From Meiothermus sp. (lineage in GTDB: Bacteria; Deinococcota; Deinococci; Deinococcales; Thermaceae): DNA of 64,000 nt. The translations under genes and the position numbers were made by a program. The stretch's first letter is position 1, and each line of letters starts with the position of its first letter. Of the stretch, positions 50,791-64,000 are shown one piece after another. The notes beneath the pieces are model-generated. The model saw nothing but the letters and a program-made list of their open reading frames with translations, was not told the origin of the DNA and ran no database searches. The stretch covers positions 807,803 through 871,802 of the forward strand of contig NZ_BPIJ01000002.1 of the NCBI RefSeq assembly GCF_026004055.1, given 5' to 3'.

Positions 50791-51858
50791 ATGGAAGCCG
50801 CTCTTCCGGCGCAACCCAGCGTGCGCTATCTGAACCCGGCCTGGTTCGCCTCGGTGATGGGCACCGGGGTGCTGGCCCAGGCCCTGGCCCAGTTTGGCCT
50901 GGTGGGGCTGGCCTTGCCGGTCTACTGGCTGGCCCTTTTGGCCCTGCTGGCCCTCTTGGGGCTCTACCTGGTCAAGCTCCTACGTTACCCCCAGGCGGCG
51001 CTTTCCGACCTGCAGCACCCCCTGCTCTCGCAGATGCTGCCTACGCTGCCCATCGCCCTTCTGGTGATGAGCCTGGCGACCCGTGTCCTGCCCTTGGGGG
51101 ACTGGGCGCTGCCGTTGGGCCAGGGGCTCTTCTGGGTGGGCATGGTGCTCATCTTCGGGGTGGGGCCGCTGGTGGTGTTCGTGGTGAGCACCCGGCTCAG
51201 GCTCCCCCTCGAGGCGGCCAGCGGGGCCTGGTTCATCCCGCCGGTCTCGGCCCTGCTGGTGCCGATCACCGCCGGGGTCTGGCTCGAGACCTTCCCCCAG
51301 GCCTGGCAGCGGGAAGTCTGGGTGGTAAGCGGGCTTTTTCTGGGTGTGGGGTTCTTTCTGTTCCTCTTCGTGCTGACGAGTTTTTTGCAGCGGCTGTATG
51401 CCCACGGGCGGCTCGAGCCGCACCTTCTGCCTTCGGTCTTCATCGGGCTGGCCCCGGTGGGGCTGCTGGTGCTCGCGCCCTGGCGCTGGCTCGAGGGCGG
51501 GGCGCGGGTGGGCTTGGTGCCGGAGGGTTGGGTTTCGGCTTGGCCGGTGATGGGCCTCGTCATTTGGGGCTTGGGTCTTTGGTGGCTCTTCTACAGCCTG
51601 GCCCTGCTCTTGGATACGCTCTTGGTGGCCTGCCGCCGCGCGCAGTTCCACTTTGCCCCGGGTTGGTGGGGGTTTGTGTTCCCGCTGGGGGCCTTTACCC
51701 TCGCCACGCTGGCCCTGTCCAGAGGGCTGGAATCGGCCTTTCTGGGTGGTCTGGCCTGGGCGCTGTTCCTGCTCCTCGGGGTGTTCTGGCTCTGGGTGAT
51801 GCTGTACTCGCTTAGGGCCTGGGCTGGCCTGGGGGCCTTGCGACCGCCGAAAAGATAG
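50791..51858 (+). CDS. TDT/SLAC1-family exporter, SSU1-like
   Basis: The 355-residue protein has ten hydrophobic segments and the family phrases NPAWFASVMGTGVLAQALAQ near the N-terminus, ASGAWFIPPVSALLVPITAG in the middle, and FIGLAPVGLLVL. The family includes TehA, malate transporters, plant SLAC1 and the sulfite pump Ssu1. Because it follows trxB under a CstR-type operator, in a genome with sox genes, export of sulfite is the best guess. Other anions are possible. Confidence 0.82.
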   Translation: MEAALPAQPSVRYLNPAWFASVMGTGVLAQALAQFGLVGLALPVYWLALLALLALLGLYLVKLLRYPQAALSDLQHPLLSQMLPTLPIALLVMSLATRVLPLGDWALPLGQGLFWVGMVLIFGVGPLVVFVVSTRLRLPLEAASGAWFIPPVSALLVPITAGVWLETFPQAWQREVWVVSGLFLGVGFFLFLFVLTSFLQRLYAHGRLEPHLLPSVFIGLAPVGLLVLAPWRWLEGGARVGLVPEGWVSAWPVMGLVIWGLGLWWLFYSLALLLDTLLVACRRAQFHFAPGWWGFVFPLGAFTLATLALSRGLESAFLGGLAWALFLLLGVFWLWVMLYSLRAWAGLGALRPPKR

Positions 51859-51936: not shown

Positions 51937-52782
51937 ATGGGGCAAAACTTACTGGGGTTGTTGGCTTTTCTACTCCTGACTGGGATGGCGCAAACTTTCG
52001 AACCCTCTCCGCGGGTACACTATGTACATTTTTTGTCGCTAGACGCAACCAAGCCACTGACTGTGGCCGGACAATTGCGCCTACCGCCTTCCAGCGCCAA
52101 ACTCCCGGCGGTGGTGATTGTGCATGGGTCTGCAGGGGTAGATAGCCGGGGGAGTATGTATGCACAGGCCCTCAATAAAGCAGGGATTGCCACCCTCGAG
52201 ATTGATATGTGGGCTGCCCGGGGGCTCATTGGAGGGCTATCCCGGCCACGGGGGGTACCCGAAACCCTCCCCGACGCCTACGGGGCCCTAAAATACCTGG
52301 CTGAGCGGCCCGAGATAGACCCGGCCCGAATCGGCATCATGGGTTTTTCCTGGGGTGGGGTGGTTTCGATGCTAACCGCTACCGCACCCTATACCGAGCA
52401 GTACCTGGGCAAAACCCTTAAGTTTGCGGCTCATGTCCCCTTATATCCGGTTTGTTGGGTTTACAACACTGTACCTGGCTACGAGTTTCGTTCTTTCACT
52501 GGGGCTCCTGTCTTGATCCAAGCAGGGGAGCGTGATACCTACGACGATCCCGACACCTGCATCAAGCTAGTACAAATGGTGGGCAACCCTTCCATTACGG
52601 TCAAGGTCTATCCTGGGGCTACCCATGCTTTCGATAGGCTCGAGCCCGAGATCAGAGTCAATGATCCCTTTGCACACAAGGGCCGGGGTGGTGAGGTGAT
52701 CTTTACCCCCAACCCCGCGCTAGCTCAGGAATCGGTGCAGACCACTGTGAGCTTTTTCAAGCGGGTCTTTGGATTGCCCTGA
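51937..52782 (+). CDS. Exported dienelactone-hydrolase-like alpha/beta hydrolase
   Basis: The ATG at 51937 follows AAGGTG and starts a signal peptide ending near GMAQT; the protein has 281 residues. The nucleophile elbow is MGFSWGGVVS (Ser at about 138), the acid is in QAGERDTYDDPDT, and the histidine in PGATHAFDRL. The oxyanion region is IVHGSAGVDSRG. It should cleave an ester or lactone outside the cytoplasm; the substrate is unknown. It has its own promoter and is not obviously part of the trxB operon. Confidence 0.82.
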   Translation: MGQNLLGLLAFLLLTGMAQTFEPSPRVHYVHFLSLDATKPLTVAGQLRLPPSSAKLPAVVIVHGSAGVDSRGSMYAQALNKAGIATLEIDMWAARGLIGGLSRPRGVPETLPDAYGALKYLAERPEIDPARIGIMGFSWGGVVSMLTATAPYTEQYLGKTLKFAAHVPLYPVCWVYNTVPGYEFRSFTGAPVLIQAGERDTYDDPDTCIKLVQMVGNPSITVKVYPGATHAFDRLEPEIRVNDPFAHKGRGGEVIFTPNPALAQESVQTTVSFFKRVFGLP

Positions 52783-52926
52783 AGCTTATACAGGGGTAAG
52801 TTTTGTCGCCCTGCTGGCAGCACACTGGGCAAATAGGCAGTTCCTCAGCCCCCTTATCGTCAGCGCGTTGCTTTTGCAATGCTCCACCCTTTGGAGGTAA
52901 GCGCATCCCGTGAGTCGGGGCTAAAA

Positions 52927-52948
52927 GTCTCCCATCGGGAGGCTTTTT
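52927..52948 (+). terminator. Probable rho-independent terminator
   Basis: GTCTCCC (52927-52933) pairs with GGGAGGC (52937-52943), with one G-T pair, and a run of five T follows. It lies about 145 bases after the hydrolase gene. The rest of 52783-53227 holds the element at 53013 and an AT-rich promoter region, and no gene that I can support. Confidence 0.65.
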
Positions 52949-53012
52949 GAATCTGGTATTGCCCCCCCTCCTCCGAGGAAAGGTAACCGACTTGTTTGTC
53001 GCCTTTTATCCT

Positions 53013-53106
53013 GCTCTTCACAGACCTGGCCGCCTGGATGGGCGGCCATTGTTGTCTAGCACAAGGCTTTTTTGAGGTTGTATGGCTCAAAGTAGGCGAA
53101 GAGCGC
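53013..53106 (-). repeat. Element with GCGCTCTTC inverted ends (reverse copy)
   Basis: GCTCTTCACAGAC at 53013 and GGCGAAGAGCGC ending at 53106 are the reversed ends of the element at 27117-27212. On the minus strand the order is GCGCTCTTCGCC, then TTTGAGCC, AACAATGGCC and GTCTGTGAAGAGC, which matches the other copy part by part. It lies upstream of transketolase. Confidence 0.75.
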
Positions 53107-53165
53107 TCTAAACGATGGTCGAACAATTTTATAAGTATTAATTATCAAAATAGCCGAAACAAAAC

Positions 53166-53194
53166 TTGATGATATTGATTGGCGTTTATTACAC
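53166..53194 (+). promoter_or_regulatory. Probable promoter of the transketolase operon
   Basis: TTGATG (53166-53171) and TTACAC (53189-53194) are 17 bp apart, in an AT-rich stretch that stands out from the GC-rich surroundings, 34 bases before the transketolase start. Confidence 0.5.
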
Positions 53195-53227
53195 TAGCTC
53201 CAAGACCCGCCTTGTGAAAGGAGACAC

Positions 53228-55204
53228 ATGGAGACCCTTAGTGCCATCGAAACCCAGGCCATCACCGCCATCCGGATGCTGGCCGCAGATGCGGTGGAGC
53301 AGGCCAAAAGCGGCCATCCGGGCATGCCCCTGGGCATGGCCCCGGCGGCCTATGTGCTTTGGAGCGACTTCCTCAGGCACAACCCCACCAACCCTCACTG
53401 GCCCGACCGCGACCGCTTTGTGCTTTCGGCGGGGCACGGCTCTATGCTCCTCTACGCCCTGTTGCACCTGACCGGCTACGACCTGCCCCTAGACGAACTG
53501 CGGCGCTTCCGCCAGTGGGGCTCCAAGACCCCGGGCCACCCCGAGTACGGCCACACCCCCGGCGTGGAGGTGACCACCGGGCCTTTGGGCCAGGGCATCA
53601 GTACCGCAGTGGGGCTGGCGCTGGCCGAGCGCAAGCTGGCCGCCGAGTTCAACCGCGAGGGCCACACCGTGGTGGATCACTATACCTACGTGCTGGCCTC
53701 GGACGGCGACCTGATGGAAGGGGTCTCGGGGGAGGCCAGCAGCCTGGCCGGGCACTGGGGTCTCTCCAGGCTAATTGTGCTCTGGGATGACAACCACATC
53801 TCCATTGACGGCCAGACCGAGCTTTCCTTTGGTGAAGATGTGCTCGAGCGCTACCGGGCCTACGGCTGGCACACTCAGCGGGTAGATGGTGAAGACCTGG
53901 CCGCGCTGCGCTCGGCCCTCCGGGCCGCCCAGGTAGACGCCCGGCCCTCCCTGATTGCCGTGCGCACGGTGATTGGAGCAGGCTCGCCCAAGGCCGGGAG
54001 CCACAAGGTGCACGGCGAGCCCTTGGGAGCCGAGGCCCTCGAGGCCACCCGCAAGAACCTGAACTGGCCCCACTCCCCCTTCGAAATCCCCCGCGAGGTC
54101 TACGAGCACTTCCGGGCGGCCATCGCCAAGGGGCAGCGCCTCGAGGCCGACTGGCGGGCCCGCTTGGAGCGCTACGCCGCAGCCTACCCCACCGAAGCCA
54201 GGGAGCTACAGCGCCGCCTGAAGGGCGAACTGCCGCCCCTCGAGTGGGAACAGCTTATCCCCGGCTTCAGCGGCAAGTTGGCTACCCGCGCTGCCTCGGG
54301 CAAGGTGCTCGATGCCCTGGCCCCGGCCCTCCCGGAGCTCTTGGGCGGCAGCGCCGACCTCACCCCCTCCAACAACACCCAGGCCCAGGGGATGGCGGCT
54401 TTTTCGCGCGAGAACCCCACCGGGCGCTACCTGCACTACGGGGTGCGGGAGCACGCCATGGGGGCCATCCTGAACGGGCTCAACCTGCACGGGGGCTACC
54501 GTGCCTATGGGGGCACCTTCTTTGTCTTCTCCGACTACATGCGCCCGGCCATCCGGCTGGCGGCCCTGATGAGCACCCCCACCGTTTTCGTGCTCACCCA
54601 CGACTCGGTGGCCATCGGCGAGGACGGCCCCACCCACCAGCCCATCGAGCACCTGGCCAGCCTCAGGGCCATGCCGGGCCTCTGGGTGGTGCGCCCGGCG
54701 GACGCCCTCGAGACCGCCTACGCCTGGCGGATGGCCCTGGAACGCCAGAAAGGCCCTACCGCCCTGGTGCTCACCCGCCAGGCGGTGCCGGTGCTAGATC
54801 GGGGCGGCCTGGGCGGCCCGGAGGGCACCCTGAAGGGTGGCTATATTCTCTCCGAACGCTCAGATGCGAAGGCGGCCATTGTGGCCACCGGCAGCGAGGT
54901 GGCCTTGGCCTTGGAAGCGCAAAAGCTGTTGGACGAGGAGGGCATCCCGGTACGGGTGGTGAGCCTGCCCTGCTGGGAGGCTTTCGAAGCCCAGCCGCGC
55001 GAGTACCGCGAGACTGTGCTGCCCCGGCACCTGCCCACCCTGGCGGTGGAGGCGGGCAGCAGTTTTGGCTGGGAACGCTACGCCGATGCCGTGCTGGGGA
55101 TTGACCACTTTGGGGCCAGCGCCCCCTACCCGGCAGTCTACGAGAACCTGGGCTTTCGCCCTGGGTCGGTGGTGCGGGCGATGCTGGAGCTGCTGGGCCG
55201 ATGA
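53228..55204 (+). CDS. tkt: Transketolase
   Basis: AAAGGAGA supports the ATG. The 658-residue thiamine-diphosphate enzyme moves two-carbon ketol units between sugar phosphates. Visible signatures are [20 protein letters not shown], the TPP/metal motif [20 protein letters not shown] followed by DDN, and [20 protein letters not shown] in the pyrimidine domain. It starts a close-packed operon of eight genes. The company of an aldolase and a CbbY-like phosphatase points to sugar-phosphate metabolism. Confidence 0.94.
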
Positions 55205-55902
55205 AGCGCGTTCGGGTACATCCCCTGCCCCTGGAGGCCCTTCCGCCCGCCGAGGTGATGCTGGTGGTGGACGTCATCCGGGCTACCAGCACCGCCGTGA
55301 TGTTCCTGGAGGCCGGAGCCCAGGCCCTCTGGCTCACCGCGGGCCTCGAGTCGGCCCGCGCCCTACGGCAAAACGGCGAGCTTTTGGCCGGCGAGGTGGG
55401 GGGGCTTCGCCCGGAGGGCTTCGACTTCGGCAACAGCCCGCGCGAGGCCGCCTTGGCCGAGCTCACGGGCCGTACCGTCATCCACGCCACTACCAACGGT
55501 ACCAAAGCCGCCCACAAGGCCGCCGGGCTGGCCCGCGAAGTGCTGCTGGCCTCGCTGCTGAACGCTCCCGCGGCCATCCAGCTAGCGAGTCGGCTGGGCT
55601 CGGACGTGGCCATCCTGTGTGCGGGTAAGGAGGGCCAGGTGGGTATGGACGACCTTTACACCGCCGGGGTGCTGGCCCAGGGGCTCCTGGCCGAGGGCTT
55701 TGAGCCGGTGGGCGACGGCGTGCAGATGGCCCTCCACCTGGCCCAGAAGCCCGCCCTGCCGGTGCTAAAAGCCTCCGAGGCCGCCCAGGCCCTGGTGCAC
55801 GAGGGGCTAGGCCAGGACGTGGAGTTCTGCGCCCAACTGGGCCTCTCCGAACGAGTGCCCCGGCTCCTGGAACGACGCGGCACCGCGCTGGTTTTCGCCT
55901 GA
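55201..55902 (+). CDS. comB: ComB-like 2-phosphosulfolactate phosphatase
   Basis: The 233-residue protein shows the ComB family motifs [12 protein letters not shown] near residue 23, [17 protein letters not shown] near 65 and [13 protein letters not shown] near 100. In methanogens ComB removes phosphate from 2-phosphosulfolactate on the way to coenzyme M; bacterial members can make sulfolactate, and many have no proven role. Its ATG overlaps the transketolase stop by four bases, so the two are probably translated together. Confidence 0.85.
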
Positions 55903-56037
55903 GGAAGCCCTGCCATCCCGACTTCCCACCACGAGCCACACGCCATGGTCAGATCTCCCACCCCACACGATAGACCACACCTTGAGTGGAAACCCCTCTT
56001 TCATCACAGATCACCAGCTACAAGCCGAGGTTAGACC

Positions 56038-56787
56038 ATGCAAGCACTCATCTTCGATGTAGACGGCGTAATCGCCGAGACCGAGGAGGGCCACCGGCTG
56101 GCCTTCAACCGGGCTTTTGCCGAGGCCGGCCTGGATATCGAGTGGAGCCAGGAGCTCTACGAGCGGCTTTTATGGGTCACGGGCGGCAAAGAGCGCATCG
56201 CCCACTACCTCTACCACTGCCCGGAGTGCCCCAAGCTCCTGGAGGCCGACATCGCCCGGCTCCACCGGCGCAAAACCGAGCTGTACAACCAAATCGTGGC
56301 CTCGGGTGAGGTGCCCTTCCGGCCGGGGGTGCTCAGGCTCTGGCGCGAGGCGCGGGCGCAGGGGGTAAAGCTCGCCATCGCCACCACCACCTCGCTGCCC
56401 AACGTGGAGGTGCTCTTGCGCCAGGCCGGGGAAGAGGTGCTGGGCTGGTTCGAGACCATCGTAGCGGGCGATATGGTGCCCAGAAAGAAGCCTGCTCCCG
56501 ACGTGTATATCCGGGCCCTGGAGAACCTGGGCATTGCGCCCGAAGAGGCTTTGGCCATCGAAGACTCCCAAAACGGCCTGATTGCCGCCCAGAAAGCCGG
56601 GATTCCCACCCTCATCACCTACAGCCACTACACCCGCGAGCAGCGCTTTGAGGGGGCCCTGGCGGTGCTGGAGCACCTGGGGGAGCCGGAACTGCCCGCC
56701 CAAGTGGTCGCCGGGCCGCGTAGCTGTGCGATGGTGGTCACCCTCGAGGTGCTGCGCGACTGGCACGGGAGGTTTGTGAGGGTCTAA
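56038..56787 (+). CDS. CbbY-like HAD phosphatase
   Basis: The 249-residue HAD-superfamily enzyme has motif I FDVDGVIAETEEGHRLAFN with the nucleophile Asp, a helical cap (about 18-90), motif II AIATTTSLPN, and motifs III/IV in KKPAPDVYIRALENLG and AIEDSQNGL. CbbY enzymes remove misfire products such as xylulose 1,5-bisphosphate near Rubisco. No Rubisco gene is in view, so another sugar phosphate is likely. The 135-base gap after comB is the only sizeable gap in this operon. Confidence 0.85.
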   Translation: MQALIFDVDGVIAETEEGHRLAFNRAFAEAGLDIEWSQELYERLLWVTGGKERIAHYLYHCPECPKLLEADIARLHRRKTELYNQIVASGEVPFRPGVLRLWREARAQGVKLAIATTTSLPNVEVLLRQAGEEVLGWFETIVAGDMVPRKKPAPDVYIRALENLGIAPEEALAIEDSQNGLIAAQKAGIPTLITYSHYTREQRFEGALAVLEHLGEPELPAQVVAGPRSCAMVVTLEVLRDWHGRFVRV

Positions 56788-56788
56788 C

Positions 56789-57091
56789 ATGGTGCGGCAT
56801 CTGATCGTCTTCAACACCGAGGCTTCCGAAGAGGGGGTGCGGGCGATGTTTGAGCAAGCCAGAGCGGTGCTGGGGCAGATACCGGGCGTGGTGGGTTTTG
56901 AGCTAGGCAAGGCGCTAGGCGAAGCGCCCCGCTACCGCTACTTGCTGGTGGTGGACTTTGCCCACGAAGGCGTAATCTCTCTCTACCGCGACCATCCACT
57001 GCACCAGGCCTTCGCCAATGCGGTCTTCCGGCCCATGGCCCCCGACCGCCTCACCACCGACTTTGTGCGGCTTTACCCGGAGGGTGCATGA
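56789..57091 (+). CDS. Dabb (stress-response A/B barrel) protein
   Basis: The 100-residue protein matches the Dabb ferredoxin-like fold: VRHLIVFNTEASEEGVRAMF at the N-terminus, then FELGKALG and the typical YLLVVDFAHEGVISLYRDHP followed by HQAF. Dabb proteins form dimeric barrels; some are enzymes and most have unknown roles. It starts one base after the HAD stop codon and overlaps the next gene by four bases. Confidence 0.82.
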   Translation: MVRHLIVFNTEASEEGVRAMFEQARAVLGQIPGVVGFELGKALGEAPRYRYLLVVDFAHEGVISLYRDHPLHQAFANAVFRPMAPDRLTTDFVRLYPEGA

Positions 57092-57375
57092 CCGCCGAGG
57101 TATTTCGCCGGATGCCCTACGCCGAGGCCCTGCCCCAGGCCCGGCGGATACTGGTAGACGGCTACGGAGAGGGGTTGGTGCTCCAGGGGACGGGCGGCTA
57201 CTACGGGCTTTACTACCTTTTTGGGGTGCTAGGCCTGCGCGAGCCCGTGCCTTCCCATCCCCCCGACTGGGTAGAGGGGCCTAGGCAAAGCCAGGAAGAC
57301 TTCAAAGAGCCCTACCAGATGGCTCACTGGCTCGAGGAGAACGGCTACAACCTTTTTGTGAACGAGAGCAAGTAG
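57088..57375 (+). CDS. Unknown small protein, paralogue 1 of a tandem pair
   Basis: The 95-residue protein has no signal or membrane segment. It shares the framework MPYAEALPQARRILVDGYGE, then LVL..GYYGLYYL, P..WVEGP..SQEDF and PYQMAHWLEENGYNLF with the next gene product, so the two arose by duplication. Aromatic residues are frequent. I do not recognise the family. The overlap with the Dabb gene (ATGA) and the short gap to paralogue 2 show it belongs to this operon. Confidence 0.75.
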   Translation: MTAEVFRRMPYAEALPQARRILVDGYGEGLVLQGTGGYYGLYYLFGVLGLREPVPSHPPDWVEGPRQSQEDFKEPYQMAHWLEENGYNLFVNESK

Positions 57376-57383
57376 GAGGAGGT

Positions 57384-57668
57384 ATGTCCGCTACCACCCG
57401 CGAGTACGACGAGCTCACCTACCTCGAGGCCCGCTCCAGGGCCATCCGGCAGATGGCCGATGGCTACGGCGAGGCCCTGGTGCTCAAAGATGAGCATGGC
57501 TACTGGGTGCTCTACTACTTCTACTGGAGCACCGAGCCCCCGCCCGAAGCCAAGCCGCACTGGATGGAGGGGCCGGTGCAAGACCCCAGCGGCTTCCGTC
57601 CGCCCTACGCGGTCAAGACTTGGATGGAGGAGAACGGCTACGAGACGTTCCAGAACGACCTGGATTAA
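57384..57668 (+). CDS. Unknown small protein, paralogue 2 of a tandem pair
   Basis: GGAGGAGG just upstream supports the ATG. The 94-residue product aligns along its whole length with paralogue 1: TYLEARSRAIRQMADGYGEA, then LVLKDEHGYWVLYYFYWSTE, PHWMEGPVQDPSGFRPPY and TWMEENGYETFQND. The N-terminus and the middle loop differ most. The function is unknown. The position directly before the aldolase gene suggests a subunit, chaperone or regulatory role in the same pathway. Confidence 0.75.
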   Translation: MSATTREYDELTYLEARSRAIRQMADGYGEALVLKDEHGYWVLYYFYWSTEPPPEAKPHWMEGPVQDPSGFRPPYAVKTWMEENGYETFQNDLD

Positions 57669-57674
57669 AGCCAG

Positions 57675-58508
57675 ATGACCGAGCCCCGCCTCAACCGCCT
57701 CTTTGCCCCCGACGGTCGCTGCTTGAACGTGGCGGTCGACCACGGCGTCTTCGGAGAGCTAGGCTTCCTGGAGGGCCTCGAGAACCTGGGCCAAGCCGTG
57801 CAAACCCTGGTGGAAACAGGCCCCGACGCCCTCCAGCTAGCCCCCGGGCAGGCCCACCTTCTGCAGCGCCTGCCGGGAAGGCAAAAGCCCGCCTTGGTGT
57901 TGCGCACCGACACCACCAACGCCTACGGTACCACCTCAGCAGGGTTGCTCTTCGCCGAGATGACGGAGGGGGTGGTTGAGCTGGCCCTGCGGCTGGACGC
58001 GGCCTCGTTGGTGGTCAACCTCCTGTGGCTGCCGGGGGAGACCGAGCTTTACCGGGATAGCCTCCGGAACGTGCAGCGGCTCAAAGCCGAGGCTGGGCGC
58101 TACGGGATGCCCCTCATGGTGGAGCCCCTGGCCATGCGGCCTGGCCGGGCTGGCTACGAAGCAGACGGGGACGTGAACCGGATTGTGCCCCTGGTGCGCC
58201 AGGCGGTGGAGCTTGGGGCCGATGTGATCAAGGCCGACTTCACCGAGAACCTGGAGGACTACCACCGGGTGGTGGAGGCGGCCTCGAGCCGGCCGGTGCT
58301 GGTGCGGGGGGGTGGGCGGGTGGACGACCGCGTCCTTTTAGAACGCACCTACCGGGTGATGGCGCAAGGGGCGAAGGGCCTGGTGTATGGGCGAAACATC
58401 GTGCAGCACAAGAACCCCCGGGGAATGGTGCGGGCCCTAATGCGTATTGTGCACGAGGGAGCCGCCCCAGAGGAGGCCGCGGCTTCTCTGAGCGGGGTCG
58501 GGGCATAA
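57675..58508 (+). CDS. DhnA/LacD-type class I aldolase
   Basis: The 277-residue TIM-barrel protein opens with RCLNVAVDHGVFGELGFLEG and has the Schiff-base lysine in GADVIKADFTENLEDY and a phosphate-binding glycine stretch PVLVRGGGRVDDRVL, then AKGLVYGRNIVQH. The family includes archaeal-type fructose-bisphosphate aldolase, tagatose-bisphosphate aldolase and the sulfofructose-phosphate aldolase YihT, so the exact substrate is open. It starts six bases after paralogue 2. Confidence 0.85.
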   Translation: MTEPRLNRLFAPDGRCLNVAVDHGVFGELGFLEGLENLGQAVQTLVETGPDALQLAPGQAHLLQRLPGRQKPALVLRTDTTNAYGTTSAGLLFAEMTEGVVELALRLDAASLVVNLLWLPGETELYRDSLRNVQRLKAEAGRYGMPLMVEPLAMRPGRAGYEADGDVNRIVPLVRQAVELGADVIKADFTENLEDYHRVVEAASSRPVLVRGGGRVDDRVLLERTYRVMAQGAKGLVYGRNIVQHKNPRGMVRALMRIVHEGAAPEEAAASLSGVGA

Positions 58509-58518
58509 TGGAGGGAGA

Positions 58519-59850
58519 ATGGTACGCCCCATAGAAGCCTACCGCGAGGCGGGGGTGCTCCCACCCGACGACCCCCTGCGCCTGCAGCTCCACAACGAGC
58601 TACACGCCCGGCCTACCCCGCGCATCCGCTTGCCCGCCTTGGTGTTGCAGGTGGCCGTGCGGCACGAAGGGGTGAGCCGGGAAGCGGAGCTCGAACACCT
58701 GCGCCGTCTGTCGGGCCTGGGGGAGCTCGAGCTCGACCAGCTTGCCGGCACCTACTTGCGCCTGCGCCTGCCGGGAGGTTCGCTGCGCTGGGAGCGGCAC
58801 ACCGAGTTCAGCACCTACACCCTGGTACAGGGCATGCCGAGCCTCGAGCCCAGCCCCGAGGTCAACCTGCTGGAACACCTGATTGTGGATCCGGCCTGGC
58901 TGAGGGGCATCCCGGGCCGCACCCTCTCGGCGGTGAAGCTGGTCATGCTCGAGGGGCCGGTGGAAAAAGCCCTGGAAATTGCCCGTCCCTGGTTTGGTGG
59001 AGGGCCGGTGGTGGCCTCGATGATGGGCCGGGGCGGGCATAGCTGCGCTGTCACCGACTTCCGCCTGCGCCCAAACGGGTTTGAGCGCATGGTGGTAGTG
59101 GCCCCCCCGGGCACCAGCGAAACCCGCGCGGGGCGTATTGCCGCCCGGCTTTTGGAGATGGAGGCCTACCGCATGATGGCCCTGCTGGGCTTCCCGCTGG
59201 CGCGGGCCCTGCGCCCCATGCTCTTCGAGTCCGAGCAGGCCCTGGCCCAGATTACCGCTCGCATCCGCGACGAAAATAAAGCCGATGCCGAGTTGCTGGA
59301 TGAGCTCGAGGCCCTGGCGGCCCGCGTCGAGCACGCCATCGCCGAGCACAGCTACCGCTTCAGCGCCACTGCCGCCTACCACGCGCTGGTGCAGGCCCGC
59401 CTGGCCGAGTTGCGCGAGACCCCCATCCCCGGCACCCAGACCATCGGGGAGTTCCTGCAGCGCCGCTTTAGCCCCGCCATGGCCACGGTGGAGTCCACCG
59501 CCGCCCGGCTTGCGGCCCTTTCCCAGCGCATCGAGCGAGCCGGGGCGCTCTTGCGGACCCGGGTGGACATTGCCCTGGAAACCCAGAACCAGGAGCTCCT
59601 GAACAAGCTCCGGCGCGGCCAGGAACTGCAGTACCAGCTCCAGCGCACCGTGGAGGGGCTCTCCATTGCGGCCATCTCCTACTACGTGGTGGGGCTTTTG
59701 TACTACCTGTTCAAGGCGGGCAAGGAGGCGGGCCTGCCCCTCTCGCCCGAGCTGGCCGCTGGGCTGGCCATCCCGGGGGTGGTGCTGGGGGTGTGGTGGC
59801 TCACCCGGCAGATTCACCACCGGCTGCTGGGGCGATACCAGGGGGATTAA
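58519..59850 (+). CDS. DUF3422 membrane-anchored protein
   Basis: The 443-residue protein carries the family mark LHNELHARPTPRI at about 24-36, a long helical middle with coiled-coil character (RIRDENKADAELLDELEALA), and two hydrophobic spans at about 375-395 and 410-428, near the C-terminus. Members are found in many proteobacteria and have no known function. It starts 10 bases after the aldolase gene and ends the operon. The location suggests a membrane link for the pathway or mere co-transcription. Confidence 0.82.
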   Translation: MVRPIEAYREAGVLPPDDPLRLQLHNELHARPTPRIRLPALVLQVAVRHEGVSREAELEHLRRLSGLGELELDQLAGTYLRLRLPGGSLRWERHTEFSTYTLVQGMPSLEPSPEVNLLEHLIVDPAWLRGIPGRTLSAVKLVMLEGPVEKALEIARPWFGGGPVVASMMGRGGHSCAVTDFRLRPNGFERMVVVAPPGTSETRAGRIAARLLEMEAYRMMALLGFPLARALRPMLFESEQALAQITARIRDENKADAELLDELEALAARVEHAIAEHSYRFSATAAYHALVQARLAELRETPIPGTQTIGEFLQRRFSPAMATVESTAARLAALSQRIERAGALLRTRVDIALETQNQELLNKLRRGQELQYQLQRTVEGLSIAAISYYVVGLLYYLFKAGKEAGLPLSPELAAGLAIPGVVLGVWWLTRQIHHRLLGRYQGD

Positions 59851-60095
59851 TCGGCCAGGTAGGGCAGTACCGCAGGGGCCATCACCCCCATCGGGAGCTC
59901 TGCTTTCCTGACATTTGAAGCCCCAATCCGCTCTAGCAAGCCAGCATCATCCCCAGCACTTTGGAGTCGGAAACCGTGCAGGGCGGCTAGTAGTTTGTGG
60001 GCCTTTCCCTCCTGAGGCGCAACGATGCACAACGTGAAAATAACCACCCAAGTAACGGTCAATTTCCACACCTTTTGCACAAAAATAGCCCACAA
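59847..60095 (-). CDS. Possible short secreted peptide
   Basis: A frame of up to 82 codons runs opposite the end of DUF3422 (four-base overlap). It holds a hydrophobic segment (KLTVTWVVIFTLCIVAP) that looks like a signal peptide, followed by about 50 mostly polar residues ending in GVMAPAVLPYLAD. Start choice is uncertain, codon bias is weak and no family is recognised. It may be a gene remnant or chance. Confidence 0.25.
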   Translation of the reverse strand: MWAIFVQKVWKLTVTWVVIFTLCIVAPQEGKAHKLLAALHGFRLQSAGDDAGLLERIGASNVRKAELPMGVMAPAVLPYLAD

Positions 60096-60106
60096 TAGGC
60101 CCCCGT

Positions 60107-60559
60107 ATGAACCTACTCGACTGGATTCGGAGCTGGGGCCGTAAACAACCTACAGAAGCCCCCGTGCTGGAAGCAAGCGAACAGCATTTCATGGGTCTGG
60201 ATGTGCAAGCGGTGATCAACGCCCACCTGGCCTGGCGCAAGCGACTCGAGGACTGCATACTGGGCCACTCCAACGAAGAGCTAGATATCGGAACCATCAT
60301 GCAGGATAACCAGTGTCTGCTGGGCCAGTGGCTCTACGGGCAGGGTGCCCGCAGTACCCTGGCCCTGCACCCCGAGTTTGCCGCTCTGCGCGAATCGCAC
60401 CGCATGTTTCACCTGTACGCTGCGCGTGTTGTGCAGACCCTGCGGATGCGGGGGGTGGAGGCGGCCCAGGTCATGCTCGAGACCGACTTCGACCGCCTCT
60501 CCAAGGACATCGTCTTCAACCTGGCTGCCCTCATGCAAAAAGAGCGCACCCTGCACTGA
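60107..60559 (+). CDS. Stand-alone CZB (chemoreceptor zinc-binding) domain protein
   Basis: The 150-residue protein is mostly one CZB domain. The four zinc ligands of the family are visible: His40 in INAHLAWRKRLED, Cys70 in DNQCLLGQWLYG, and His98 and His102 in SHRMFHLYA. CZB domains sense zinc, or react to hypochlorous acid through the zinc-cysteine, in chemoreceptors and diguanylate cyclases. Here no output domain is attached, so it must act on a partner protein. It has no signal peptide. Confidence 0.83.
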   Translation: MNLLDWIRSWGRKQPTEAPVLEASEQHFMGLDVQAVINAHLAWRKRLEDCILGHSNEELDIGTIMQDNQCLLGQWLYGQGARSTLALHPEFAALRESHRMFHLYAARVVQTLRMRGVEAAQVMLETDFDRLSKDIVFNLAALMQKERTLH

Positions 60560-61575: not shown

Positions 61576-62013
61576 ATGCTTCGATACATTTTGCTGGCGC
61601 TTTTAGGGTTGTTGGGCACAGCCAAGGCCCAGCGGGTGGATTTTGACCGCTGGTATCCCTACCCCCAGGCCAGCCAGTACGCCCAGTCGCACGGGCGCAT
61701 CCTGATGGTTTACTTCTGGAGCGAGGCCTGCCCCTACTGCGACCAGATGAACACCCATGTCTTTTCCGATGCGGCGGTCTCGAGAACCCTCGAGCGCAGT
61801 TTTGTGGTGGCCAGCGTGAACAGCCAGAGCCCCGAGGGCCGCGCTCTCAGCGCCCAGATGCGGGCTTTTGGTACACCCAGTTTTGTCTTCTTCGTACCCC
61901 AGAGGGGTACGTTGAAAGAAGCGGGGCGGCTATTTGGTAGCCGTACCCGGGCGCAGTTCCTGCAAGAACTGCAGCAGATCTGCGCCCAAATGGGAGGTGA
62001 AGGTTGTGGATAG
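61576..62013 (+). CDS. soxW: SoxW-type periplasmic thioredoxin
   Basis: The 145-residue protein has a signal peptide ending near AKAQR and a thioredoxin-like domain with YFWSEACPYCDQM (Cys52, Cys55) and the cis-Pro in FGTPSFVFF. SoxW proteins reduce SoxY or other Sox components and keep the pathway active. Two more cysteines lie near the C-terminus (QQICAQMGGEGCG). It is the first gene of the sox operon and overlaps soxY by eight bases. Confidence 0.85.
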   Translation: MLRYILLALLGLLGTAKAQRVDFDRWYPYPQASQYAQSHGRILMVYFWSEACPYCDQMNTHVFSDAAVSRTLERSFVVASVNSQSPEGRALSAQMRAFGTPSFVFFVPQRGTLKEAGRLFGSRTRAQFLQELQQICAQMGGEGCG

Positions 62014-62467
62014 AAGAACCTTTTTAAAAGCGTCGGCAGGGGCCGTTGCCGGGACGATGCTGGCCAACCAGTTGACCTCGGCCTTAGCCCAGGGCGCCCT
62101 CGAGGGCGAGGACATCACCAACCTCGAGAAGGGCCTGCAACAGGTATTGGGCAAGAGCTTCAAGGACTTGACCCCATCGCCGCAGGTCAAGCTCGTCGCG
62201 CCCACCATTGCCGAGTCGGGCGCCAACGTGCCGGTGGAGATCGAGGCCAGCCTGCCTGCCGATCAGGTCAAGGCCATTCACTGCTTTAGCGACAAGAACG
62301 CCAATCCCCTGCTCTTTACGGTGATTCTCAACGGCGTTTTGCCCTACTACGCAACCCGGGTGCGGGTGGCCGAAACGGCCCCGGTACGGGCGGTGGTCGA
62401 GACTAAAGACGGCAAGTTCTTGATGGCTTCCCAGTCGGTGCGGGTCACGGTGGGCGGCTGCGGTTAA
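62006..62467 (+). CDS. soxY: SoxY sulfur-carrier subunit
   Basis: GGGAGGTGA precedes the GTG start at 62006, which gives 153 residues with a twin-arginine leader (DRRTFLKASAGAVAG). The C-terminus ends in VTVGGCG, so the swinging-arm cysteine (Cys152) is the last residue but one, one glycine shorter than the usual GGCGG. SoxY carries the sulfur intermediates covalently on this cysteine and pairs with SoxZ. An upstream in-frame start would lack the leader. Confidence 0.93.
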   Translation: MDRRTFLKASAGAVAGTMLANQLTSALAQGALEGEDITNLEKGLQQVLGKSFKDLTPSPQVKLVAPTIAESGANVPVEIEASLPADQVKAIHCFSDKNANPLLFTVILNGVLPYYATRVRVAETAPVRAVVETKDGKFLMASQSVRVTVGGCG

Positions 62468-62478
62468 GGAGGCATGCA

Positions 62479-62805
62479 ATGGCGATTAATATCCTGGTTC
62501 GTTTCAACCCGGCCAAACCCAAAGCCGGTGAAGAAGTTCGGGTACAGATTGTGGTGCAGCACCCCATGGAACCTGGCACCCGTCGGGATGCCAGCGGCAA
62601 GCTGATTCCCGCCGACTACATCAACGAGGTGAATGTGCTGATGGATAACCAGCTCATCGCCCAGGTCAAGCCCGGCCCCGGTACCAGCGCCAACCCGCTG
62701 TTTGCGTTCAAGATGAAGGCCAGCAAGGCCGGGCAGCTCAAAGTCACCTGTAAAGACCTAAACGGCCAGACCGGCGAAAAAACCGCAGACCTGACCCTGG
62801 CCTAG
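62479..62805 (+). CDS. soxZ: SoxZ sulfur-carrier partner
   Basis: The 108-residue protein has the SoxZ immunoglobulin-like fold with VRFNPAKPKAGEEVRVQIVV, then HPMEPGTRRDASGKLIPADY, near residue 35, and a closing CKDLNGQTGEKTADLTL. It has no signal peptide and is probably exported as a complex with the Tat-carried SoxY. AAGGAGG lies just before its start, 11 bases after soxY. Confidence 0.95.
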   Translation: MAINILVRFNPAKPKAGEEVRVQIVVQHPMEPGTRRDASGKLIPADYINEVNVLMDNQLIAQVKPGPGTSANPLFAFKMKASKAGQLKVTCKDLNGQTGEKTADLTLA

Positions 62806-62814
62806 GAGGTTTGC

Positions 62815-63606
62815 ATGGGTCGCTTCTGGCGTTTGGTTGGGGCAGCAGTTCTGGCCCTCTTCAGCCTCGTGGTACTGGCCCAGGAAGAGGACGATCCGGT
62901 CAAAGAGGCCGAGAAACAAAAGAAGCAGCTCTTGGAGCAGAGCGGCGGCATTCTACCCAGCGACTTGTACGTGGAGCAGGGCGAGCAGCTTTTTAAAGCC
63001 AAGCGCGGGCCCAAGCAGGTGAGCCTCGAGGCCTGCGACTTTGGCCGGGGGCCGGGGAAGCTCGAGGGAGTAGTAGGGCGGCTGCCCCGCTACTTCTTCG
63101 ACACCCGCCGGGTAGAAGACCTCGACTCGCGTATCCGCACCTGCATGATCCGGCTCCAGGGCTTCCAACCCCAGGAAATCCGGCGCAGTGACGTGGTGGC
63201 CATTGCCTTTTACCTGGCCTCGCTCTCCAACGAGCAGCCCGTGACGGTGCGCCCCCTGATGCCCCAGGAGAAAAAAATGTATGAGCTGGGCGAGCGACTC
63301 TTCTACCTGCGGGCCGGCCCTCGGGATATGGGCTGTGCAACCTGCCATGTGAGCTACGTGGGCCGTCGGGCTGGGGTGCTGCCGTACTCCGACATCCTCA
63401 AGGACAAACGCGCCGCCAGCCACTGGCCGGCCTTCCGTTACTCCAACGACCAGGCCTGGACCATGGCCGACCGCATCCGGGCCTGCTACAGCAACCTGAG
63501 CATGCCCGCCCCCGACTTCTACTCCGAGCCCATCATCGCCCTGACTCTCTTCATGAACGTGCAGGCTCGAGGGGCGCGGATGGACTTACCTGGGTTCATT
63601 CGTTAG
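62815..63606 (+). CDS. soxA: SoxA, monoheme c-type cytochrome subunit
   Basis: The 263-residue protein has a signal peptide ending near LVVLAQE. It carries one heme motif, CATCH (174-178). The N-terminal domain, which binds a second heme in diheme SoxA, here has only Cys74 (EACDFG) and Cys110 (RTCMIR), which probably form a disulfide. The active-site cysteine that becomes a heme-ligating persulfide lies at Cys224 (IRACYSNL). With SoxX it joins thiosulfate to SoxY. Confidence 0.93.
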   Translation: MGRFWRLVGAAVLALFSLVVLAQEEDDPVKEAEKQKKQLLEQSGGILPSDLYVEQGEQLFKAKRGPKQVSLEACDFGRGPGKLEGVVGRLPRYFFDTRRVEDLDSRIRTCMIRLQGFQPQEIRRSDVVAIAFYLASLSNEQPVTVRPLMPQEKKMYELGERLFYLRAGPRDMGCATCHVSYVGRRAGVLPYSDILKDKRAASHWPAFRYSNDQAWTMADRIRACYSNLSMPAPDFYSEPIIALTLFMNVQARGARMDLPGFIR

Positions 63607-63615
63607 GGAGGTCTT

Positions 63616-64000
63616 GTGCGGCGATTCTACCTACCCACGTTGCTTCTTTTGCTTCTCGGCCTGGCCAGTGGCCAGACCGGCCCGTCCTACATCGACGCCG
63701 AGCTGCAGCGGCTGATCCAGGCCGGAGGCCAGAACTACGCCAATACCCTGCTCAAGCAGGCCCCCGACCAGGCCCTTTGCTCTATCCACCGCAACAAGCT
63801 GCCCGCCGAGGTGCTGGGCCCCTTCATCGAAGCGCAGCGGGCGAGTATCAAGTACCCCGCCGACGGCAAGCTGATGGGCGACTGGAAACAGGGCGAACCC
63901 ATCTTCAACACCCTGGCCCGGGGCAACTGTTTTTCCTGTCACATGGGCTCCCCCCTCAACATTGGGGGGAATGTGGGGCCCAGCCTGGAGAAGTACGGTC
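63616..64000 (+). CDS. soxX: SoxX c-type cytochrome subunit (partial, runs off window)
   Basis: GGGAGG precedes a GTG at 63616 and opens a frame that runs off the end of the window after 128 codons. It has a signal peptide (LLLLGLASGQ) and a heme motif GNCFSCHMGSP (Cys105-His109) followed by NVGPSLEKYG, typical of SoxX. The long region before the heme, including QALCSIHRNKLPAEVL, resembles the extended SoxX of some lineages. It forms the SoxAX cytochrome with the gene upstream. Confidence 0.85.
   Translation, partial: MRRFYLPTLLLLLLGLASGQTGPSYIDAELQRLIQAGGQNYANTLLKQAPDQALCSIHRNKLPAEVLGPFIEAQRASIKYPADGKLMGDWKQGEPIFNTLARGNCFSCHMGSPLNIGGNVGPSLEKYG

Follow-up and report, generated by a model that had tools for sequence, protein, structure and literature searches.

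We analysed 64,000 nucleotides of a Meiothermus sp. genome (contig NZ_BPIJ01000002.1; this whole stretch is called the window below) and propose that seven adjacent genes in it, cbbT-comB-cbbY-Dabb-U1-U2-aldolase, are an accessory or regeneration arm of the chemolithoautotrophic Calvin-Benson-Bassham (CBB) system, a reading to which we give a probability of roughly 0.88. This proposal comes from the position of the homologous block in relatives, where it lies beside the genes for RuBisCO, PRK, CbbX and GlpX. Computation gave synteny of the block with RuBisCO clusters, its co-distribution with RuBisCO across genomes, and the family assignments of its products. The block studied spans window positions 53228 to 59850 and, as an earlier note on this DNA had described, comprises eight open reading frames (ORFs), all of which were confirmed on the + strand and assigned to families:

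53228–55204, + strand: cbbT, transketolase (TIGR00232, 885 bits, above the cut-off; best solved match 2e6k, the T. thermophilus transketolase).
55201–55902, + strand: comB paralogue of the CBB type (PF04029, about 200 bits), a candidate alpha-phosphohydroxy acid phosphatase for which 2-phosphoglycolate is the proposed substrate.
56038–56787, + strand: cbbY, a HAD protein (HAD_2), predicted xylulose-1,5-bisphosphate (XuBP) phosphatase (R. sphaeroides CbbY 4uar, E 8.6e-59).
56789–57091, + strand: Dabb, a dimeric alpha/beta barrel protein (PF07876, 1.2e-12).
57088–57375, + strand: U1, a small protein of an unnamed family, without a Pfam or NCBIfam match, with the C-terminal tail NESK.
57384–57668, + strand: U2, a tandem paralogue of U1 (about 42% identity) with the C-terminal tail ND(L/V)D.
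57675–58508, + strand: DhnA-type class I aldolase (PF01791, DeoC/LacD aldolase), the operon member specific to Meiothermus.
58519–59850, + strand: DUF3422 protein (PF11902), adjacent and judged to lie outside the CBB system.

The genes had also been described as joined by overlaps or very short gaps, which is correct for every junction except one. Thus, cbbT and comB overlap by 4 bp, as do Dabb and U1, and gaps of 1, 8, 6 and 10 bp separate the HAD gene from Dabb, U1 from U2, U2 from the aldolase and the aldolase from the DUF3422 gene, respectively; the exception is the comB-HAD gap, which measures 135 bp. The scan for promoters and terminators was uninformative (0 and 5 sites, versus 0.7 and 5.5 expected), and Rfam gave no match within 52700–60200.

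The core order tkt-comB-HAD-Dabb-U1-U2 is kept in Thermus, and cbbT leads the block in relatives too. In the Thermus version a 269-aa class II aldolase is inserted between comB and the HAD gene, in place of the Meiothermus class I enzyme, and a PsiE-like gene follows U2. Gene order is thus conserved beyond the genus, and the aldolase type alone switches. Note that the PsiE-like gene, which encodes a small membrane protein and closes the Thermus operon (L074 7500–7940), is missing from the Meiothermus version. After the block, Thermus has a divergent LysR gene and, beyond it, glpX-cbbL-cbbS-cbbX-prk-rpe-fba, and in several Meiothermus genomes the LysR/cbb cluster comes after the DUF3422 gene. 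Block and cluster adjoin in Thermus and in the majority of the RuBisCO-bearing relatives in Meiothermus. In the source genome the LysR-glpX-cbbL-cbbS-cbbX-prk cluster lies away from the block, at C1:1.69 Mb.

The co-distribution of these genes with RuBisCO also supports the proposal. Form I RuBisCO, called with PF00016 at E ≤ 1e-60, was present in 25 of 50 Thermaceae genomes, and the U1/U2 family in 27 of them. All 25 RuBisCO-bearing genomes carry U1/U2, compared to 2 of the 25 without RuBisCO (Fisher p 5.6e-12, which is not a calibrated probability because the genomes are related and cbb genes move laterally). One of the two exceptions, G015, has a contig that begins 72 bp upstream of cbbX, and its RuBisCO thus falls in an assembly gap. 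The other, G004, lacks form I RuBisCO and carries a decaying operon, in which only fragments of tkt and comB remain and both U1 and U2 carry frameshifts (L070 5478–8878), while cbbY is still open and the DUF3422 gene intact; G004 is a draft metagenome-assembled genome, where single frameshifts may be assembly errors. Linkage alone does not explain the co-occurrence of U1/U2 and RuBisCO, since in G000, G010 and G014 the block is not linked to the RuBisCO cluster but occupies a locus of its own. Dabb was found in 16 of 61 relatives, which correspond to the U1-carrying set minus G003, G004 and G009. Within Meiothermus the operon aldolase occurs in exactly the Dabb-carrying genomes, and 8 Meiothermus with the RuBisCO operon have it. 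At G000:C1:1380777-1381457 there is a further RuBisCO-large match that is far weaker (78 bits) and probably represents a RuBisCO-like protein; such weak matches are common in Thermaceae with or without form I RuBisCO.

The DUF3422 gene behaves differently. It is present in 17 of 18 Meiothermus genomes, RuBisCO-bearing or not, as well as in G023, and on this ground it was rejected as a member of the pathway. In G010 (L112 3831–5180) it adjoins LysR/glpX/cbbL while the tkt block is on another contig, and the DUF3422 gene thus shows where the ancestral cbb locus of Meiothermus lies. The earlier note had treated all eight genes as one pathway unit that would bring two uncharacterised families, the Dabb-linked pair and DUF3422, into a pathway context. 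With DUF3422 taken out, conserved order and synteny uphold the unit, and through the RuBisCO linkage the U1/U2 pair beside Dabb does gain such a context.

The assignment of the HAD protein as CbbY, proposed earlier as a CbbY-like phosphatase, is strong. It matches R. sphaeroides CbbY over its full length (4uar; 202 bits, E 8.6e-59) and Arabidopsis CbbY (4uav; 152 bits, 1.7e-43), whereas the next non-CbbY chain scores 80 bits. Moreover, the stretches TGGKERIA and TTTSLPNVE are common to the HAD protein and the R. sphaeroides enzyme (4uar/4uas); the two differ by about 20 extra C-terminal residues. CbbY removes XuBP, an inhibitor of RuBisCO (PMC10212915), and the window protein is predicted to have the same activity.

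The second phosphatase belongs to the ComB/TTHA1438 family of 2-phosphosulfolactate phosphatases, with which it shares PF04029 (199.9 bits, gathering threshold 26.4) and the motifs common to all copies (IRxT, GE, GNSPxE, TTNGT and AGxxG...DD). It differs in being a diverged paralogue that falls below the ComB equivalog cut-offs (NF010700, 258 versus 332; TIGR00298, 83.9 versus 175) in a genome without ComA. A CBB-type copy from Thermus scores 231 bits on NF010700, whereas the housekeeping copy scores 421 and passes 332. The number of housekeeping PF04029 copies in Thermaceae is one or two, and genomes with the CBB-type comB have one copy more; in the tree the CBB-type copies lie outside the housekeeping clades, with Thermus and Meiothermus forming one group in 36% of bootstrap trees, a value that leaves their monophyly unsettled. 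In Thermus G024 (L076 3827–4280) and G063 (L162 10475–10890) comB carries apparently the same deletion, which joins IRAT to TNGT, and in G061 (L161) both comB and cbbY also look frameshifted.

What could this phosphatase act on? ComA, the source of phosphosulfolactate, was found in 0 of the 37 Thermaceae genomes searched, which argues that coenzyme M synthesis is not its role. A search of 61 genomes with the phosphoglycolate phosphatase family TIGR01449 gave nothing above the cut-off, and nothing in Thermaceae at E ≤ 1e-30. With neither ComA nor a HAD phosphoglycolate phosphatase above the curated cut-off in the Thermaceae examined, ComB may fill the CbbZ slot. We propose it for this slot because RuBisCO makes 2-phosphoglycolate in its oxygenase reaction and no alpha-phosphohydroxy acid is simpler. 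We found no report in the open-access literature of ComB acting on phosphoglycolate.

U1 and U2 are always side by side, and U2, like U1, matches no Pfam or NCBIfam family. Their best hit in a profile search of the PDB had an E of 0.99. The AlphaFold2 model of U1 scored well (predicted local distance difference test, pLDDT, 90.7; predicted template modelling score, pTM, 0.83), and a fold search against the PDB returned no confident relative (Foldseek best E 0.59; VIA Z ≤ 3.6), a result that does not in itself establish a new fold. A U1-U2 fusion obtained by reading through the Thermus stop codon, in which an intramolecular dimer was sought, was uninformative (pLDDT 46), and an alignment mixing single and fused sequences was left out because its U2-only rows fell on the U1 half. 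In a pattern scan of 84,980 genomes, which finds close relatives only, the pair was limited to Meiothermus and Thermus. The proteins end in NESK in 18 of 18 U1 sequences and in ND(L/V)D in 18 of 18 U2 sequences, and the U1 model is disordered over its final five residues. Since a tail that is conserved and yet disordered is typical of a partner-binding motif, a role as partners of CBB enzymes is the one that we favour for them.

The Dabb protein scores 48.7 bits on PF07876, against a gathering threshold of 25. All 16 sequences have H4, Y66, H69 and H72, which align with residues of olivetolic acid cyclase (His, Tyr and HPxH) that are catalytic in that enzyme. This relationship is remote (E ~4e-7) and the block offers no polyketide context, and the pattern would at best fit an enzyme whose substrate is an enolisable carbonyl compound.

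The closest solved relatives of the operon aldolase are MJ0400 (ADH synthase), LsrF and the archaeal class I fructose-1,6-bisphosphate (FBP) aldolase, with which it shares the DhnA-type class I fold family. D22 and K186, the conserved Asp and the Schiff-base Lys, are invariant in 13 aldolase sequences and align with MJ0400 and LsrF. In contrast, the match to MJ0400 is only about 78 bits, and the aromatic residue of the 'MYPRG' site of that enzyme is not conserved. As the cycle's only FBP aldolase the enzyme was ruled out by the 307-aa class II FBP aldolase that comes after rpe in all those cbb clusters that were followed to their end. With that aldolase already encoded alongside RuBisCO, sedoheptulose-1,7-bisphosphate is our first guess for the substrate. 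Orthologues 56–60% identical occur in other families of the order (G040, G044, G048, G050 and G052; L039, L041-L044), and those checked have as neighbours genes for a Gfo/Idh/MocA dehydrogenase, a PfkB/IolC-like kinase, a lyxose isomerase and sugar ABC transporters. These neighbourhoods suggest that the aldolase was recruited from a sugar pathway; the clusters outside Thermaceae represent an uncharacterised one.

Taken as a Calvin-cycle arm, the block would work as follows; we infer every substrate and partner, and the steps carry different weight. The transketolase would regenerate pentose phosphates, and CbbY would clear XuBP as an inhibitory by-product of RuBisCO. The operon aldolase would act on ketose bisphosphates of the CBB cycle, sedoheptulose-1,7-bisphosphate for instance, for which the odds are slightly below even. 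Somewhat more tentatively, the comB paralogue may remove another alpha-phosphohydroxy acid, 2-phosphoglycolate, and so replace CbbZ. That U1 and U2 are small partners binding RuBisCO or another CBB enzyme through their conserved tails is on balance doubtful, and it is a little more doubtful still that Dabb is an enzyme with a damaged or labile sugar phosphate as its substrate.

Several observations speak against assigning the block to the Calvin cycle. Outside Thermaceae the aldolase orthologues lie in sugar-catabolic clusters; Dabb and the second aldolase are both missing from the RuBisCO-bearing G003 and G009, and the operon of G023 has no second aldolase. The in-gene deletion disrupts comB in G024 and G063, which keep RuBisCO, so comB is dispensable there. 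HAD phosphatases are promiscuous, and one from another subfamily may do the job of a phosphoglycolate phosphatase despite the negative TIGR01449 result. Finally, the lateral movement of Thermaceae cbb genes inflates the co-distribution (PMC13019369). The same mobility (PMC13019369), the comB broken in two Thermus and the Dabb absent from two RuBisCO genomes would fit a block that is CBB at its core and in which U1, U2, Dabb and comB are passengers on a mobile cbb island, with no role in the cycle. We consider this unlikely: almost all RuBisCO genomes have intact U1/U2, the two are strongly conserved, they lie between cbb genes with junctions of 8 bp or overlapping, genomes whose block is not linked to RuBisCO still retain them, and in G004, which has lost RuBisCO, they carry frameshifts.

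Less probable again is a heterotrophic operon for sugar phosphates or pentoses that merely occurs in the same strains. It would account for the aldolase orthologues beside dehydrogenase, kinase and isomerase genes elsewhere in the order; however, the aldolase is the only gene common to those clusters and the rest of the block tracks RuBisCO. Moreover, CbbY and transketolase are standard genes of cbb operons, and the block decays where RuBisCO has been lost. The earlier note had offered a pathway for sulfo-sugars or sulfolactate. On this reading the aldolase would cleave sulfofructose-1-phosphate as YihT does, and ComB would handle phosphosulfolactate. Membership of PF04029 and PF01791 and the adjoining sox sulfur-oxidation genes are what it has in its favour, but the sox genes act on inorganic sulfur, ComB is under its equivalog cut-offs, and ComA is absent from the Thermaceae searched. 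As to YihT, the broad Pfam family is shared, and the aldolase profile search of solved structures, in which YihT entries were not compared directly, did not return YihT at E 0.01 and ranked MJ0400, LsrF and the archaeal class I FBP aldolase highest. On these grounds, and on the synteny and co-distribution with RuBisCO, we rejected the sulfo-sugar pathway, which we regard as very improbable.

The surroundings of the block were also inspected. A gene for a SLAC1-type anion channel lies upstream (window 50791–51858). Downstream, the start of a sox cluster (window 61576–64000) encodes a thioredoxin-like protein and SoxY (PF13501), followed by SoxZ-, SoxA- and SoxX-like ORFs, the last three named from sequence only. 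These sox genes agree with what has been published for Thermus brevis PS18, which grows autotrophically on thiosulfate by the CBB cycle (PMC13019369).

How does the block compare with known cbb systems? Proteobacterial cbb operons carry cbbY and cbbZ, transketolase and a ketose-bisphosphate aldolase. The block resembles those of Rhodobacter and Ralstonia in the transketolase, the CbbY and the ketose-bisphosphate aldolase serving RuBisCO, and a red-type CbbX is encoded near it in relatives. It differs from them in that it has no CbbZ, with a ComB-fold phosphatase in that slot, and has Dabb and U1/U2 in addition; in Meiothermus it further has the class I DhnA-type aldolase. CbbY and CbbZ of R. 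sphaeroides are discussed in PMC10212915. CBB genes have already been published for Thermus and Meiothermus (PMC5015936, PMC13019369), and the clusters of T. brevis PS18 (PMC13019369) and Thermus sp. NMX2.A1 (PMC5015936) have the same LysR-glpX-cbbLSX-prk-rpe-fba arrangement with a transketolase nearby. For PS18, proteomics has been published for other cbb genes (PMC13019369); the main text of that 2026 paper lists the transketolase KQ693_12605 and the LysR gene KQ693_12565, which bracket the block, and says nothing of cbbY, Dabb, phosphosulfolactate or hypothetical genes in the interval, where synteny would place comB, a class II aldolase, cbbY, Dabb, U1, U2 and a PsiE-like gene. New here are the composition of the accessory module, the linkage of U1/U2 to RuBisCO, a ComB specific to the CBB system, the switch of aldolase type and the removal of DUF3422 from the unit. 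It is conceivable, although we would bet against it, that U1/U2, Dabb and the CBB-type ComB together make an undescribed, Thermaceae-specific RuBisCO/Calvin-cycle module, in which a pair from a new family would engage a CBB enzyme through its tails, a ComB-fold phosphoglycolate phosphatase would replace CbbZ, and the cycle would be enabled at high temperature.

For the CBB-type comB of Thermaceae, the genome annotation "2-phosphosulfolactate phosphatase" is very likely misleading. If the Calvin-cycle reading is true, the block would provide a short list of candidate RuBisCO-linked proteins from the sole Deinococcota family shown to grow by this cycle, at temperatures at which damage products of ribulose-1,5-bisphosphate form faster; in plants, XuBP formation increases with temperature (PMC10212915). 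It would also make directly testable whether the ComB-fold enzyme is a phosphoglycolate phosphatase, whether U1 and U2 bind RuBisCO, PRK or CbbX, and why the second aldolase that Thermus uses is unrelated to that of Meiothermus.

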